In this document: positions 2,563-9,742 of the stretch, piece by piece
Numbering within the stretch: the stretch's first letter is position 1
How the letters are laid out: the number at the start of each line of letters is the position of its first letter
Origin: Candidatus Nanopelagicales bacterium
GTDB taxonomy: Bacteria > Actinomycetota > Actinomycetes > Nanopelagicales > Nanopelagicaceae
Reading direction: 5' to 3'
Assembly (NCBI GenBank): GCA_030834095.1
Contig: JAURGA010000014.1
Coordinates: 1-36,952, forward strand
Length of the DNA stretch: 36,952 bases
Notes under the pieces: generated by a model
What the model saw: only the letters and a program-made list of their open reading frames with translations
Database searches by the model: none
Told to the model about the DNA's origin: nothing
Translations under genes and position numbers: made by a program

Positions 2563-3198
2563 GTGCCGGTTAATACAAAAGAGTATTACGACGGTGATGA
2601 GCTCGTTCCTGTTTCAAGGTCAAAAAAGTTTCGTAGGTCAAAGTTATTTATCGGATTAAGCATGGTTGGCCTTTCGGTCACCGGACTAACACTTGCAGCC
2701 AGCATCTCAATCAATGCTGGAAGCATTGAATTTGGCCAGGGTATATACAGAATTCAATCTTGCGACCAATGGATTGCAATTAACTTAGTGCCTACCGAAG
2801 CCTCTTATGATGGACTGTCACGAGTGGCAGAGATTCAGATCTCAGGTCTCGATTCAACAAGATGTCGTGGCAGCAACTTTAGGATTCAACTTTATCCAAC
2901 AGGTGGATCCACAACCCCAATGGCGCTGTTCGCCGAAGGAAGCACTCCTGTTGATCGCCTACTGCTTAGTGTTAGCTCGGATGTAACAAAGGTTCGCGCA
3001 AATGCAGTTTCTCTAATTGATGGATCTGGTCGTTTGATAACTGCAAGCCTGACTGCTGATGGTTCGGGCGTTGCCTACGATCGCTGGCAATATTTAAAAT
3101 ATGCCACATCAAATGGTGTTTATGGTGTTCTGTTCACAAGACCACTGGCAACAGGATCAGCAGTAAATAGTCTGACGGTGCAGAGTGCGACCCAATAG
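2563..3198 (+). CDS. FGQG-domain protein with N-terminal membrane anchor/leader (paralogue 1)
   Basis: Family not recognised; one of five proteins here sharing the same domain. A 26-residue charged cytoplasmic head ending KKFRRSK precedes a single hydrophobic segment (28-46), which runs into LAASISINAG and then EFGQG (56-60). Cysteines sit at 67 (10 after F57) and 101, the spacing found in all paralogues. The remainder (to residue 211) is Ser/Thr-rich and beta-predicted. GTG start at 2563 is supported by AGGAG at 2551-2555, 7 nt upstream. The stop overlaps the start of the giant lectin adhesin by 14 nt, so both are probably co-translated. By analogy with SipW substrates the leader may be cut after LAA by the signal peptidase encoded at 11312-11992; this is inference. 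Likely extracellular subunit or anchor. Confidence 0.7.
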   Translation: MPVNTKEYYDGDELVPVSRSKKFRRSKLFIGLSMVGLSVTGLTLAASISINAGSIEFGQGIYRIQSCDQWIAINLVPTEASYDGLSRVAEIQISGLDSTRCRGSNFRIQLYPTGGSTTPMALFAEGSTPVDRLLLSVSSDVTKVRANAVSLIDGSGRLITASLTADGSGVAYDRWQYLKYATSNGVYGVLFTRPLATGSAVNSLTVQSATQ

Positions 3199-6100
3199 CA
3201 GAAAGTTAATTGCTAAATTCCTTTCATTTACATTCTTTCTTTCACTATTTTCTGGATCAGAGCTTGCCTCTGCTAATACGCCTGCCGTAGCGCTTCCATC
3301 TTTTTTTAATGCCACAACTTCATTTGCAACCGTTAGTGGAATCTCAGTATCAAACTACACATCGGTGCAAGCAACAATCAGTGTGGCAAATGGAAACGTA
3401 AAGTTAACGTCAACAACAGGCTTGACTCAACCCACAGGCTATTCATCTGCTGATTGGACGAGTAACACATCAACAGTAATTTCGTTTTCTGGAACACAGG
3501 CTGATGTAAATAGCGCACTGGCCACCTTGCAATACAAGGCAAATACGATAGGGACCGCAGATACGATTACGGTTGCCACATTTGTAGTTGGTGGTGCTTA
3601 CGATCCTTCGACTGGTCGTATTTATGAAATTGTAAATAATGGTTCAGCTATTTCTTGGGAATTAGCAAGGTGTAAAGCTAAATACTCAAACTCTGATGTG
3701 TATTTAACAGCGGGGGTTTCTCTTCGTGCCAATGATCGTTGCGCTTCTAGCACTGCCTTAACAAGAAAAACTTCTGGTGGATTGAAGGGATACCTTGCAA
3801 ACATAACCAGCCTAGAAGAACACCAATTCCTTATGACAAAACTAAGTGGGGTTGGCATGATCGGTGGTGCCGATATGGATTCAGAAGGAACTTTTATTTG
3901 GATGGACGGACCCGAGTCTGGTCAGGTTTTCTTCACCCCTGGGCAGACTTCCAGGCGTGGAAATTTCACAGTTTCAGGATCTGTTGCTGGCTTTTCATAT
4001 GGCACCAATCGCTTCAACTATTTTTCAGATGGAGAACCGAATAACGCTAGCAATGAAGATTTTGTTGAATTTGGATTTGGAAGTGCCGGTGTTGGAAAGT
4101 CTTGGAACGATTGCCGAAGTGCCTGCAACCGAAACACTTATGTTGTCGAATATGGTGGCGAAGAAGGCGACACTCTTCAAGGAGCTAGCGGAACTATTCC
4201 GGTACGCACTGCTCCGACTGCGCCGACCTCAGTTACCCCAACTGCTGGCGAACTTGAAGCAAGTCTCACATGGACAGCGCCAGCCAATGTTGGCGGAACT
4301 CCGGTAACCGGTTACTTCGTTGAATACAAAGCCAGTGGCGGTTCTTGGACAACAGCAACTTCAAATACTGCAAGCGCGTCTACGAGTTACACGGTTACAG
4401 GTTTATCTGGCGGAGTTACTTACACATTTAGAGTCTCTGCGATAAATGCTGCCGGAACAAGTGCGGCCTCGACGGAATCTGATGGAGCTGCAGTAAGAAA
4501 GCGAACACAAACAGTTACTTGGTCCCCCACGACTTCAATCCGCGTGCAGCAATCACCTTTGACGCACTCGTCTTTAGCAACTGCGCTAGATACCGCAACC
4601 ATTACATACTCAGTCACCAGTGCTGGGATCACGGGATGCAGCGTTGCATCGGATACTGGGGTCCTAACTTATAACGCACCTGGCGTATGTGTTGTTCGAG
4701 CAAGTGCTGCAGAGACTGTCAGCTATGCAACAGCAACTCGAGATATAACTTTCACCATTACGAGTATTTCTCTTCACCCAACTGATGACACAACGACTGC
4801 AGGATTAACCGATTCCTTTACGATAACGACCGTCGCTGCCCCCGCTGGTTTAACCAGAGTGATCAAATGGCAAGTTGCCTCTGACACAGTAACAGCAGCT
4901 GCATCGGTCTCTTGGATTGATGTAACCAGCGGCAGCGGCTCAACAAACGGCTCTGGCTTCACAACCGAAACTTTTACCACTGCCGCTTTGACTACTGCTA
5001 TGAATAAGTATAGATATCGAGCGATTGTTACCTTTACGGGATCGGGAGCAACAGCGGGCATTACATCGGTCGAGACTTCAACGGTTGCAACCCTCACAAT
5101 TAATCCAGCCATCACAATTACGTCGAGCACATCAACAATTACAAAAAAATATGGTGCTGGTAGTGAGACCCGAACGGTGACATTTACCGGTGGTACCGAT
5201 ACCAGAACCGTATCGGCCTCATCGCTATCACTGGCAGGCGGAAAGATTACTTTTGATACAACTACTGCCCTATTTACAATCGATACCCGAACGGCAGTTG
5301 GCACCTATCTCGACACAATTACTGTGACAGATGCGAAGGGTGCAACGGCTTCCTATGTTCAGACAATTATCTTTACCGTTGCCGATACCTTAACGGTTAC
5401 ATCAGATACGCCAACTGCACTTACCTACACGGGATCCGAGGCAGTATTTACTGAAACGGTTACTGCAGTTTCAGGGTTAGTAACTGGCGATGTTATCTCT
5501 GGGGCCACCTATAACTACAGCGCAAGTGCGATTACAGGAACTGTCTCTGGTTTCGTAAATGAAGGACAAACATTAACTTTAAGTGCGCCATCAGGATCAA
5601 TTTTTACAAGTATTGCATTTGCTAGTTATGGAACACCTAACACCGGATCAACTCCCTACACGCAGAGCGCATGTCATGCCGAAAGCTCATCAACAAAAGT
5701 AGGGGATGCTTTCATTGGACTCAACTCAGCGAGCATAGGCGCAAATAACGTGATGTTTGGCGATCCCTGTAGTGGCACTGTCAAGAAATTAGCAGTTACT
5801 TTAAATTACCAAAGCACAACCTCAAATGTTAACTACGGCCCCTCAACAACGAAGCCAACAAATGCTGGAACTTATTTGATCACACCATCTGTCTTAACTT
5901 TCTCAGATGGCGCAGCCTCTAACTACGCCGCGATTACCTATCAGAGCAGCACGCTAACTATTAATAAGGCAGCGCAAGCTGCGCTTATCGTGGTTCCGCT
6001 CTATCTACCATTTAATAGCAATCCAACTTCGGCAACGCTTCTAACAACTGGTGGCTCTGATAGCGGAATAGTTACCTATGCCTATGTCTCATCGCTCTCA

Positions 6101-6589
6101 ACTGCAGGTGGCTGCGCACTCTCTGGCGCCGATAGCTCTACTCTCACAGTTACATCAGATGGCACCTGTCGCATCGTTGCAACTAAGGCTGCTACCAATA
6201 ATTATCTAATCGCTATCTCTGATACTGGAACTGTTACCTTCCATCTCTATATTTCTTATATCCCAGCGCCAAGGCCGGCTGAATATCCAGCAGAGATTGT
6301 TCTAAGTGGCGCTACTGCAATGACTAGCAATGGACTGGCGCCAACGATTACAACTACTGGCGTTGATTTCACCGCCGCCCCTGGCACAACTTTCACAATT
6401 GCTGGCTCCGGATTTGTTGGCACCAGATTGGTCAGAGTCTCAGGAACTAGCGCTGCCTTCACAGTTTTATCTGATACTTCACTACAGATAACGATGCCAA
6501 GTGGTCTAGTTGGAATCAGCGGGCCGATCTATGTTGAGAAGGCCGAGGGCTCACGGGTCTCTGAGGATTGGGTTACTGGGACTGCGTAG
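3185..6589 (+). CDS. Giant secreted adhesin with C-type lectin, FnIII, SUEL lectin and IPT/TIG modules
   Basis: Predicted secreted multidomain adhesin, 1134 residues. Residues 1-30 are a Sec signal peptide ending in ASA. After a beta-rich module (about 31-135) comes a C-type lectin-like domain (about 138-327) with an EPNN motif at 284-287, the mannose-type EPN signature, and a WND at 307-309. An FnIII domain (about 341-436) and several Ig/cadherin-like repeats follow. Residues about 788-878 match the SUEL/D-galactoside-L-rhamnose-binding lectin family: FASYGTP (812-818), a CHA, and FGDPCSGT (858-865). This domain sits inside an MBG/YDG-like repeat, whose first half precedes it and whose second half (NYGPSTTKPTNAGTY) follows it. 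The C-terminus ends in an IPT/TIG-like domain. GTG start at 3185 lies within the preceding FGQG gene. No cell-wall sorting signal or C-terminal membrane helix is visible, so attachment may depend on a partner, perhaps that upstream protein. Confidence 0.8.
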   Translation: MRPNSRKLIAKFLSFTFFLSLFSGSELASANTPAVALPSFFNATTSFATVSGISVSNYTSVQATISVANGNVKLTSTTGLTQPTGYSSADWTSNTSTVISFSGTQADVNSALATLQYKANTIGTADTITVATFVVGGAYDPSTGRIYEIVNNGSAISWELARCKAKYSNSDVYLTAGVSLRANDRCASSTALTRKTSGGLKGYLANITSLEEHQFLMTKLSGVGMIGGADMDSEGTFIWMDGPESGQVFFTPGQTSRRGNFTVSGSVAGFSYGTNRFNYFSDGEPNNASNEDFVEFGFGSAGVGKSWNDCRSACNRNTYVVEYGGEEGDTLQGASGTIPVRTAPTAPTSVTPTAGELEASLTWTAPANVGGTPVTGYFVEYKASGGSWTTATSNTASASTSYTVTGLSGGVTYTFRVSAINAAGTSAASTESDGAAVRKRTQTVTWSPTTSIRVQQSPLTHSSLATALDTATITYSVTSAGITGCSVASDTGVLTYNAPGVCVVRASAAETVSYATATRDITFTITSISLHPTDDTTTAGLTDSFTITTVAAPAGLTRVIKWQVASDTVTAAASVSWIDVTSGSGSTNGSGFTTETFTTAALTTAMNKYRYRAIVTFTGSGATAGITSVETSTVATLTINPAITITSSTSTITKKYGAGSETRTVTFTGGTDTRTVSASSLSLAGGKITFDTTTALFTIDTRTAVGTYLDTITVTDAKGATASYVQTIIFTVADTLTVTSDTPTALTYTGSEAVFTETVTAVSGLVTGDVISGATYNYSASAITGTVSGFVNEGQTLTLSAPSGSIFTSIAFASYGTPNTGSTPYTQSACHAESSSTKVGDAFIGLNSASIGANNVMFGDPCSGTVKKLAVTLNYQSTTSNVNYGPSTTKPTNAGTYLITPSVLTFSDGAASNYAAITYQSSTLTINKAAQAALIVVPLYLPFNSNPTSATLLTTGGSDSGIVTYAYVSSLSTAGGCALSGADSSTLTVTSDGTCRIVATKAATNNYLIAISDTGTVTFHLYISYIPAPRPAEYPAEIVLSGATAMTSNGLAPTITTTGVDFTAAPGTTFTIAGSGFVGTRLVRVSGTSAAFTVLSDTSLQITMPSGLVGISGPIYVEKAEGSRVSEDWVTGTA

Positions 6590-6642: not shown

Positions 6643-7341
6643 ATGGCGCGCGCAAAAAAACCTGAACTCAATTTAATTCTTGCCGATAAATTACTGGCTT
6701 GGGCCGATAAATATGATGTTACGAAGGATGGATATGTTCGTGGGTTATACGAAGCGCTAACCAGCCGCAAGAATTTGCAAATCTGGGCTAGCTTGAACCC
6801 AATCGAATACTTGCCGATGCCCGAATTAAAAGCTGGTCTCAGCATGGCTAATTGGACTCGGTTTATTACTGTGCTTCGAAATGTGCTCGTCTTCTTGCCA
6901 GTGGCTCTGACTTGGGCAGCTGTCGGCGAGGCGACCACTGCTTTCTCAACCTACTTGAAGGCCAATGGCTCTGACATCGTCAACTTCTTGGATTTCTGGC
7001 AGAACGGGTATGGCGTTCTGGATGACAAGTGGAGAATAGCCACTATCGCACTTCTCGACTTCCTGATTATTATGGTTGTAATTGTTCTGACCCTGATTGC
7101 CTCATTCTTCTCACGTCGAGTTACTGAACTTCAGATAATGTCTGAAAAAGAGACTGATCGTGAGCGGATTTTGCTCTCGGTTGAGATTGCTTCGTATCTA
7201 TTTGAAAAGCAGAAAGTTACAAATGTGACAATGAATCAATCTCTGGCAAGGGCACTCGATAAATTGCTCAATGCAACAGAATCGATTGAAGCAACCGCTA
7301 AAGCTCTTGAGAAAACGAGTAAGAGTAAAGGTCTTAACTAA
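6643..7341 (+). CDS. Two-TM membrane protein, partner of the downstream MotB-like protein
   Basis: Not recognised by family. 232 residues: a cytoplasmic N-terminal part of about 75 residues, a membrane helix at about 76-98, a short loop of about 35 residues, a second helix at about 133-156, and a charged, helical cytoplasmic tail rich in Lys/Glu. The stop codon overlaps the next start (TAATG), so the two products are probably made in fixed ratio. The next gene has a MotB-like transmembrane Asp, so this protein could be the stator or channel partner in a MotA/ExbB-like role. However, it has two helices, where ExbB and MotA have three and four, and no family motif I can name. A TAGGCT hexamer at 6629-6634, 8 nt before ATG, may be its -10 box. 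Confidence 0.55.
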   Translation: MARAKKPELNLILADKLLAWADKYDVTKDGYVRGLYEALTSRKNLQIWASLNPIEYLPMPELKAGLSMANWTRFITVLRNVLVFLPVALTWAAVGEATTAFSTYLKANGSDIVNFLDFWQNGYGVLDDKWRIATIALLDFLIIMVVIVLTLIASFFSRRVTELQIMSEKETDRERILLSVEIASYLFEKQKVTNVTMNQSLARALDKLLNATESIEATAKALEKTSKSKGLN

Positions 7342-7829
7342 TGGCGCGCAGGCGCATTGGAATTGAAGAAGAGGATGCAACTAGCCAGGCAGGTTGGCTC
7401 TTCGCAGATTCATTCTTAGCTTTGATGGTTATCTTCCTTGCAACTATTTCATTTGTTCCAGTTATCGGTGGTGGTGGCGTTCTTGGCACCGGCAAAGTTG
7501 GAAAAATTGCGGGATCCAATTATGTGGATGGGTTGGTCTTGGCCTACGAGGAAGTTGATAAGGCTCGGATTACAAATGACATAGCAACCTACATCGGGTC
7601 GAAGAATCTCTCACAAAATACCGCAGTTCTTTACGCGAAGGTTATTGGCGGATTTACTTCCGAAGAGGGCGAAGCTAAAGGTTCGCTGCAGGCTCTGACA
7701 TTTGCAGTCGATTTGCAGAAGGCCGAAATACCTTATTTTGAGAGAGCCAAGATTGATTTGGGCTCAAGTAATTTGATTCCGACGAAGACCGTGGTACTTC
7801 GACTTACGCTTTCACCAAACGGCCGATAA
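7341..7829 (+). CDS. MotB/OmpA-like membrane protein
   Basis: 162 residues. A short acidic N-terminus is followed by one membrane helix (about 18-40) that begins GWLFADSFLALMVIF. The embedded Asp23 in an A-D-x(3)-ALM context closely resembles the proton-binding Asp of MotB (YADFMTAMMAFF) and of ExbD/TolR/ZorB-type proteins. The extracellular part (about 60-158) ends with GGFTSEEGEAKGSLQALTFA, which looks like a degenerate OmpA-C fold (helix after a GhTd-like turn), but the peptidoglycan-binding Asp/Arg pair is not clear. It overlaps the upstream gene by 1 nt. A role as the proton-coupled half of a small motor or force-transducing complex is inference. No flagellar genes are present in the window. 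Confidence 0.55.
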   Translation: MARRRIGIEEEDATSQAGWLFADSFLALMVIFLATISFVPVIGGGGVLGTGKVGKIAGSNYVDGLVLAYEEVDKARITNDIATYIGSKNLSQNTAVLYAKVIGGFTSEEGEAKGSLQALTFAVDLQKAEIPYFERAKIDLGSSNLIPTKTVVLRLTLSPNGR

Positions 7830-8216: not shown

Positions 8217-8924
8217 CTACTTCTTGGCCTTGGTAGTTTTCTTGGCCTTAACCACTGCCTTTTTCTTCTGAGGTGCAGACTTCGCAGACGTATTTACAGA
8301 TATCCGGCTCTTGGCTTCACTTTTACTGTTCGATTCAGCCTTTTTGATTATCTGAGCCAACCAATCATCGACATCTTCGTTGTTCTTTGACTTTGACTCC
8401 TTAGAGGACTTAAAAGCTGGCGAAGTAAAAGAAGATACTGCACTCGAAGCTGGAGAAGATGTTTGCTGTGTTGTTGGTAATCCAGAGTCAGAAGAATTTG
8501 GCTTGATCTGTTTTGAAGCACGCTTTGGAAGATTGATTTTGCCCAGCTTTATATTCTTTAGCTTTCCGACCGGTAATTTCATGAAGAATTTAGCAATTGT
8601 TTTGACTGCTCGATTGGGGATATCCAGATACTTGGCAAAGCCCTCTGGCTTCTTCTCTTTCTGTCCGCTGGCATAACCGCTTGTTTCGCTTGCATCATCT
8701 GAAAGATTTCCGGGACTCATACCCAGCATTAATCTGCTGGTTCGAGAATCTGGTCGCCCAGTTCCGCGCCAAGTCGCAACTTCGATAACGCTACCTTCGG
8801 CCATTTTGCCAATCACTAATTTCTGACCATCAGGTAGATCAATTACAAGAGGCGAATCTGAAATTGGCAGCGGCAGCTGTGAAACCTTCGCAGGCGCTTG
8901 GGGTGCAGGATTTTTTTTCGCCAT
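8217..8924 (-). CDS. Lysine-rich cytoplasmic protein, unknown function
   Basis: Not recognised. 235 residues with no signal peptide or membrane helix. A short ordered part (about 24-70) contains LVIDLPDGQKLVIG and a TWRGTGRPDSRTSRLMLGM segment. The middle contains basic KLKNIKLGKINLPKRA stretches. The C-terminal half is low complexity Ser/Lys, ending in KKKAVVKAKKTTKAKK, like histone H1-type tails. The start overlaps the stop of the collagen-like gene (TAATG), placing it in the same operon as the signal peptidase and collagen-like protein. A nucleic-acid or acidic-polymer binding role is possible from charge alone. It may also act as a cytoplasmic partner of the membrane components; nothing in the sequence decides this. 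Confidence 0.55.
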   Translation of the reverse strand: MAKKNPAPQAPAKVSQLPLPISDSPLVIDLPDGQKLVIGKMAEGSVIEVATWRGTGRPDSRTSRLMLGMSPGNLSDDASETSGYASGQKEKKPEGFAKYLDIPNRAVKTIAKFFMKLPVGKLKNIKLGKINLPKRASKQIKPNSSDSGLPTTQQTSSPASSAVSSFTSPAFKSSKESKSKNNEDVDDWLAQIIKKAESNSKSEAKSRISVNTSAKSAPQKKKAVVKAKKTTKAKK

Positions 8925-9742
8925 TAAGTTATCTCAAATCCTATTTTTCCAGTGTAATCAGAGGTGCTGATTTCATTTAATGAGAAAGAGGGCAGCGATG
9001 TCTGAGTTGTGTTAACGCAAGTTGTAGTTCCACCAATACTAAACTGAGGAATTCGAGTCGAACCAGCGGTTGGAATTGAATTCAAAGTGCATTTAATTAA
9101 ATCACCATTGCTGTAATTCCCAGACTGGAGCGGTGTCCAAGGTGCGCTTTTGATTTTGAAATAGAACTTCATAGGTTTTCCACCGCAAGTAGATTTCAAA
9201 TCGCTAACTGTAATTGTTTCAAATACAAAATCTTCACCCGTATATGCAGCTTCTAATCCAACTGTTGCACTATCTGAGCAAGCACCAACTGTTACTTGGC
9301 CATTACCAAAATCTAGAGAACCGCCGCCGCCGCTGCCTCCAACTCCGTCAGCACCTGCTGGTCCTGCTGGTCCTGCTGGTCCTGCTGGTCCTGCTGGTCC
9401 GCCTAAACCTTGCAAACCTTGTGGACCTTGCAAACCTTGCAAACCTTGCAAACCTTGTGGACCTTGCGCACCATCTTGCCCGGCAACACCTGGCGCACCA
9501 GCAATTCCTGGGATACCTTGAATTCCATCTAAACCATTTAATCCGTTTGCACCTGCAACACCTGCAGGGCCTGGAACTCCATCTTTACCAGTCAATAAAA
9601 CTAAGACTTGATTTAATGAATCCGCGCTCTGTGCAGAATCCCCAAAGATAAATGATCTTGAAGCAGGCGTTGTCTCTGCTGCATAGGCAACAGCAACACT
9701 GCCCATTGAGAGCATAATCAGGGTAATTATGAATTTCTTCAT
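8924..9742 (-). CDS. Secreted collagen-like protein with C-terminal FGQG-type domain
   Basis: 272 residues. Signal peptide 1-21 (AYA cleavage). A short segment (22-51) precedes 28 uninterrupted Gly-X-Y triplets (residues 52-135), rich in GPA, GLQ and GPQ, expected to form a collagen triple helix. After a Gly/Ser linker, residues about 142-272 form a globular part that begins [13 protein letters not shown]. The F145-to-C155 distance is 10, and the next Cys is at 186 after a [13 protein letters not shown] segment, matching the domain shared by four other proteins here. Two further cysteines are specific to this protein. The start overlaps the upstream membrane protein stop (TGATG), so both are in the signal peptidase operon. 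Unlike its relatives it has a normal Sec signal peptide. Likely a trimeric stalk presenting or docking the FGQG head; function inferred. Confidence 0.75.
9338..9589 (-). repeat. Collagen-encoding tandem 9-bp repeat tract
   Basis: Encodes the 28 Gly-X-Y triplets. Within it, five near-identical GPA codon sets and runs of GLQ/GPQ codon sets form direct 9-bp repeats (for example repeats of CCTGCTGGT on the + strand near 9356-9400). Such tracts can vary in copy number by slippage without breaking the frame. Confidence 0.8.

Follow-up and report, generated by a model that had tools for sequence, protein, structure and literature searches.

A SUEL lectin domain nested in a split MBG-like repeat of a predicted actinobacterial adhesin

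The window analysed here is the whole 36,952-nucleotide stretch of contig JAURGA010000014.1 from a Candidatus Nanopelagicales bacterium, the source assembly of which comprises 53 contigs. On its plus strand, an open reading frame at 3185..6589 with a GTG start encodes a 1,134-amino-acid protein with a signal-peptide-like N terminus, hereafter the adhesin. From N to C terminus, the adhesin carries a C-type-lectin-like domain, a fibronectin type III (fn3) domain, an Ig-like region, a split MBG-like repeat holding a SUEL lectin domain, and an IPT/TIG domain. The N terminus and this domain content suggest that the protein is exported and located at the cell surface. The C-type-lectin-like domain spans residues about 197–314 (3773..4126, plus strand, in the region 3572–4195), with an EPN motif at 4034–4042 and a WND motif at 4103–4111; it resembles CD23 and DC-SIGN-type CRDs (phmmer, best 5.3e-6) and scores 14.6 bits against Pfam Lectin_C, under the cut-off of 22.6. 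The fn3 domain (PF00041, 51.3 bits) occupies residues 349–432 (4229..4480, plus strand), and the IPT/TIG domain (PF01833, 24.6 bits, cut-off 20.9) lies near the C terminus at 6368..6538 (plus strand). A Pfam scan of the whole protein found no RTX family. At 221–1426 of the window, a neighbouring gene encodes a secreted-looking protein of 401 amino acids with a PA14 domain, another sugar-binding type. Two small genes without a Pfam match follow the adhesin gene at 6643–7829; the first recurs in eight other members of the genus beside other genes, so its fixed neighbour is not the adhesin.

The original prediction placed a SUEL/rhamnose-binding lectin domain at 5546–5818 (plus strand). These positions translate exactly to residues 788–878 (SGFVNEGQ...NYQST), and profile and fold both confirm a SUEL domain there. 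PF02140 (SUEL_Lectin, cut-off 31.4) matches residues 800–873 (5582–5803; model positions 2–78 of 80) with 36.4 bits when the whole adhesin is searched and 41.9–42.4 bits for the domain. Its nearest relatives of solved structure, found by sequence with phmmer, are the urchin lectin SUL-I (5h4s, 3e-27), CSL3 (4.9e-11) and a chain of 8gl6 labelled RemA (1.5e-10). The 8gl6 entry presumably stems from the study PMC10994853. The trapped substrate in that study is RemZ, a RemA homologue, which is well resolved only in its C-terminal domain (PMC10994853); 8gl6 may offer no structural template for the adhesin SUEL domain. In the AlphaFold2 model, pLDDT in 10-residue blocks is mostly 88–97 in the SUEL core and 70–73 around loop1. 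The model has the five strands (50–58, 62–66, 71–82, 114–118 and 134–143), one long helix (101–109) and two long loops of the family fold, in the same strand and helix order as the latrophilin-1 RBL domain (compared with PMC2430599), and a Foldseek search with it returned CSL3 at 5.8e-6, with the CSL3, latrophilin and SUL-I structures all at probability 1.00. The prediction had spoken of an animal lectin family, which is right in that the family is best known from animals, but bacterial SUEL domains were already known (RemA) and the domain is frequent in phage contigs.

In latrophilin-1, rhamnose is contacted by Glu42, Tyr63, Gly117 and Lys120 (PMC2430599). All four residues are present in the adhesin SUEL domain: by alignment, E793 (5561..5563), Y815 (5627..5629), and G864 and K867 of a GTVK stretch (5774..5785), all on the plus strand, are their respective equivalents. 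We compared 87 distinct SUEL domains, from 13 bacterial genome loci, one plasmid, the adhesin itself and 72 IMG/VR sequences; of these 87, 84 retain the equivalent of Glu42, 85 that of Tyr63, 81 that of Gly117 and 86 that of Lys120.

The cysteines of the domain are as predicted, with only those of the CHA motif (C830, 5672..5674, plus strand) and the DPC motif (C862, 5768..5770, plus strand) left and the CxGKNSC pair replaced by FIGLNSA. The predicted pairing agrees with the latrophilin-1 numbering of PMC2430599, in which C830 and C862 correspond to the Cys83–Cys115 disulfide between loop1 and loop2, which is retained, and the lost pair corresponds to Cys96–Cys102. Two further disulfides, Cys41–Cys71 and Cys50–Cys128, are also lost and had been missed. 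Animal rhamnose-binding lectins have four disulfides and the adhesin domain has the Cys83–Cys115 equivalent only, so we file it as a prokaryotic SUEL domain rather than as an animal RBL domain. Across the comparison set, the C4–C7 pair (CHA and DPC) is present in 83 of 87 domains, absent from three and cut off in one. Both C1 and C3 occur in 25 domains and neither occurs in 60, with one discordant domain each way, one of these a truncated row (Fisher p = 1.5e-19, uncorrected for kinship). The myxobacterial domain L033 is alone in having two or more cysteines between C4 and C7. Paired absences of C1 and C3 in L028, L120, L156 and L206 fall inside a clade whose other members have the pair, and this points to more than a single event. 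The idea of a coordinated cysteine loss thus stands in that partners come and go together, but the pattern is general among prokaryotic and phage SUEL domains (n = 87) and not specific to the adhesin.

The flanks of the SUEL domain are the two halves of one repeat, as had been proposed. We built a repeat profile of 102 positions from 32 natural uninterrupted repeats of the same bacterial family, excluding the adhesin. The N-terminal half (residues 733–787, 5381..5545, plus strand) matches profile positions 1–53 with 36.6 bits, and the C-terminal half (residues 880–936, 5822..5992, plus strand) matches positions 56–101 with 63.3 bits. When joined, the halves match positions 1–101 with 97.2 bits, approximately the sum of the two, and joined repeats with a shuffled C-terminal half reached at most 37.1 bits. 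This comparison rules out a beads-on-a-string arrangement. An assembly chimera is unlikely, given the open frame and the way the two halves continue each other in one repeat. One repeat is interrupted by a complete second domain, and uninterrupted homologues of the repeat exist. The proposed MBG identity holds less firmly: the joined repeat aligns with Pfam MBG_2 (PF18676) end to end (positions 2–72 of 72), but at 18 bits against a cut-off of 25, and we therefore call it MBG-like. No stretch in a profile of the complete joined repeat is sufficiently conserved to serve for scanning contigs. Its pLDDT in the AlphaFold model is below 50, so the fold of the carrier, presumably a beta sandwich, is assigned from sequence. 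In the open-licence literature, we found no paper on MBG repeats with Lcl_C or SUEL domains.

We searched the genomes of the bacterial family and found MBG-like repeats in 39 of 296. Counting covered 40 stretches besides the adhesin locus and gave 42 contiguous matches. Three of these are left halves of split repeats with an overextended match; in the remaining 39, the largest insert is 13 amino acids. Among about 55 repeats in the family genomes, 39 are thus empty, 15 hold an Lcl_C-like domain and one, that of the adhesin, holds a SUEL domain. The left halves of the 16 split repeats mostly end near profile positions 47–54, with a few matches extending into the insert, and no inserts were found at other positions of the repeats read in these genomes. 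The Lcl_C-like inserts are about 140–195 amino acids long and share the pattern CAxGGxCxxGDxGPGGGxVFY...WYLPS...VRAIRAF. Two that were scanned score approximately 29 bits against Pfam Lcl_C (E about 1e-6), short of its 34.9 cut-off, and searching genomes with that family also hit three of the split loci. Close orthologues and identical copies (L072 and L073) occur among the 15 Lcl_C-bearing repeats, so independent insertions number fewer than 15. Lcl_C also occurs in proteins of approximately 400 amino acids in the same genus, so the hairpin is not its sole home. The C-terminal domain of Legionella Lcl, which adopts a C-type-lectin-like fold, binds sulphated glycosaminoglycans (PMC11162425). 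Collagen-like repeats accompany Lcl_C in Legionella Lcl, and the window encodes a collagen-like, secreted-looking protein at 8924–9742 (minus strand). Because the same hairpin is empty or Lcl_C-bearing in relatives, it acts like a slot whose binding domain can be exchanged, an exchange read from two cargo types, with 15 of 16 occupants from one family.

SUEL domains also interrupt repeats in other proteins. At two Bacteroidota loci, L022 (5842–7095) and L023 (5839–7347), tandem repeats are exactly 80 amino acids long and the SUEL-bearing copies measure 178 and 184 amino acids; a third SUEL-split tandem-repeat locus, likewise from Bacteroidota, is L026. Flanks joined across the SUEL domain align to intact copies in the same protein with scores of 372 (L022), 297 (L023) and 601 (L026), compared with maxima of 193, 168 and 357, respectively, when the downstream flank was shuffled. 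The SUEL domain therefore splits three kinds of repeat: the MBG-like repeat, the 80-amino-acid type of L022 and L023, and the L026 repeat. Self-alignment did not establish nesting in RemA-like Flavobacterium proteins, L025, L024/L034 or L033. L024 and L034 are 529-amino-acid proteins with a central SUEL domain, near-identical in genomes labelled Rhodospirillaceae and Micavibrio, and may represent a further nesting in an unfamiliar carrier. In a model of the L022 repeat, strands 42–57 and 133–149 run continuously between the carrier, which is of low confidence, and strands beta1 and beta5 of SUEL. Strands beta1 and beta5 of latrophilin-1 belong to a single sheet (PMC2430599), and the topology of the SUEL and L022 models would agree with cargo ends that lie next to each other.

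The SUEL domain is rare among the relatives of this bacterium. Of 296 genomes of the family or order, 395 sampled from the class and 246 sampled from the phylum, this one alone has a PF02140 match above the cut-off; two weak sub-threshold matches were found elsewhere in the family. In IMG/VR, two scans returned over 100 SUEL loci, some on contigs found twice; these scans are pattern-based and their contig counts do not measure abundance. The loci include L035–L038 and L121–L221. The best pairwise match of the adhesin SUEL domain is L035 (49 of 81 residues), and its nearest relatives are mostly phage-contig proteins. In four tested IMG/VR contigs (L035, L037, L038 and L138), a terminase large subunit gene is close to the SUEL gene, while the SUEL protein of L169 has a match to a virion structural family. 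PA14, fn3 and SUEL domains occur together in the L035 protein, and its gene sits between a recombinase-like gene and the terminase large subunit gene. A search of INPHARED gave no SUEL match, and one match was found in a Hymenobacter plasmid. In a SUEL tree built from few columns, most Bacteroidota domains group in a supported clade that does not include the adhesin domain, whose own placement within the tree is unsupported. Base composition gave no signal of recent acquisition, as the SUEL segment ranks at the 15th percentile for GC3 among windows of the adhesin gene. It is plausible that SUEL domains have been transferred with phages, in either direction.

Taken together, these observations make it probable that residues 733–936 form a split domain, in which an MBG-like hairpin holds a SUEL cargo for adhesive glycan binding and serves as an exchangeable slot. 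Following this logic, the hairpin at about position 54 of 102 would be opened to hold the complete lectin, and the first and last SUEL strands, lying side by side, would let both ends leave and re-enter it. By analogy with other split domains, the SUEL domain would project from the stalk, with the sugar pocket (E793, Y815, G864 and K867) facing away from it. The adhesin could then attach the cell to particles, algae or other cells through their galactose- or rhamnose-type glycans, and the N-terminal C-type-lectin-like domain may provide a second sugar-binding head. The SUEL domain and its fold, the splitting of the repeat, the slot common to relatives and the conserved contact residues are observations, whereas projection from the stalk, sugar binding, the adhesive role and exchange as an evolutionary process are inferred. 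A broader proposal is that the MBG-like hairpin is a dedicated slot in which small-genome, aquatic actinobacteria swap unrelated glycan-binding folds, with SUEL circulating between phage and host; 'aquatic' is a reading of gene content, relatives and the small genome, and we regard the proposal as tentative and rather doubtful.

The SUEL domain could instead have a structural or protein-binding role and bind no sugar, as is the case for several RBL domains of animal receptors. Sugar binding is not expected of receptor RBL domains in which Glu or Lys is altered, a lone latrophilin domain binds sugar only weakly (PMC2430599), and three of four disulfides are missing in the adhesin domain. However, its four contact residues are intact and near-invariant in prokaryotic and phage SUEL domains, and the disulfide that ties the two pocket loops together is kept, making a non-binding module unlikely. 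The hairpin, for its part, could be a tolerant or recombination-prone site where occupants are held without selection for function, in keeping with a slot that is empty in most repeats and patchily occupied across genomes. We consider this quite unlikely, as the occupants are intact domains in open frames, from two families that both have binding-type folds, and no inserts were found elsewhere in the repeats read.

The adhesin gene or its SUEL segment might also have come recently from a phage, with a protein that works for the phage or a prophage instead of the cell. The domain finds its best pairwise matches in IMG/VR contigs, several with a terminase nearby, its position in the tree is apart from most Bacteroidota domains, and other sampled genomes of the family, class and phylum lack above-threshold SUEL matches. 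Against this, no phage family was found among the window genes scanned with Pfam, the segment stays within the range of its gene in base composition, the MBG-like carrier and the C-terminal region are common to cellular relatives, and a scan of IMG/VR found no relative of the C-terminal half of the repeat. A recent arrival of this kind with a phage-serving protein appears very unlikely. The preferred reading remains a split domain that displays a putative sugar-binding cargo for the cell.

On this reading, split-domain display of binding heads is not confined to RTX adhesins but also occurs in another bacterial lineage, on another carrier. The MBG-like repeat looks like a reusable holder for adhesive domains, because relatives hold another glycan-binding-type domain at the same spot, and inserts at the hairpin offer a sequence-only rule for finding binding domains. 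A domain best known from animals also proves frequent in phage-contig proteins. If swapping is real, the slot could help predict from sequence which glycans a planktonic bacterium attaches to.

The adhesin domain shares with the SUEL/rhamnose-binding lectins SUL-I (5h4s), CSL3 (2zx0) and latrophilin-1 (2jx9) the fold, the PF02140 profile, the E/Y/G/K site and the loop1–loop2 disulfide; it differs from the animal lectins in lacking the other three disulfides and in being a single nested copy on a bacterial stalk. RemA, the mobile gliding lectin of Flavobacterium johnsoniae, is likewise a bacterial adhesin whose SUEL domain lacks the CxGKxxC pair, and its overexpression leads to cell aggregation through galactose-containing EPS (PMC8481357). 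RemA is, however, a T9SS protein, and many of its homologues have the C1–C3 pair that is absent here. The Lcl_C/DUF1566 domain, represented by the C-terminal domain of Legionella Lcl, occupies the same hairpin in 15 related repeats, but it is a larger insert than SUEL with a C-type-lectin-like fold, and glycosaminoglycan binding is documented here for Legionella only. A close architectural parallel is with the split domains of RTX adhesins, in which a complete ligand-binding domain, its two ends close together, interrupts a beta domain of Ig-like or similar type. Those are Gram-negative adhesins with a CBM, PA14 or vWFA cargo, whereas the protein described here has an MBG-like carrier, a SUEL cargo (Lcl_C-like in relatives) and no RTX repeats detected by Pfam. 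It is best read as a known split-domain architecture, here with a new carrier and a new cargo.
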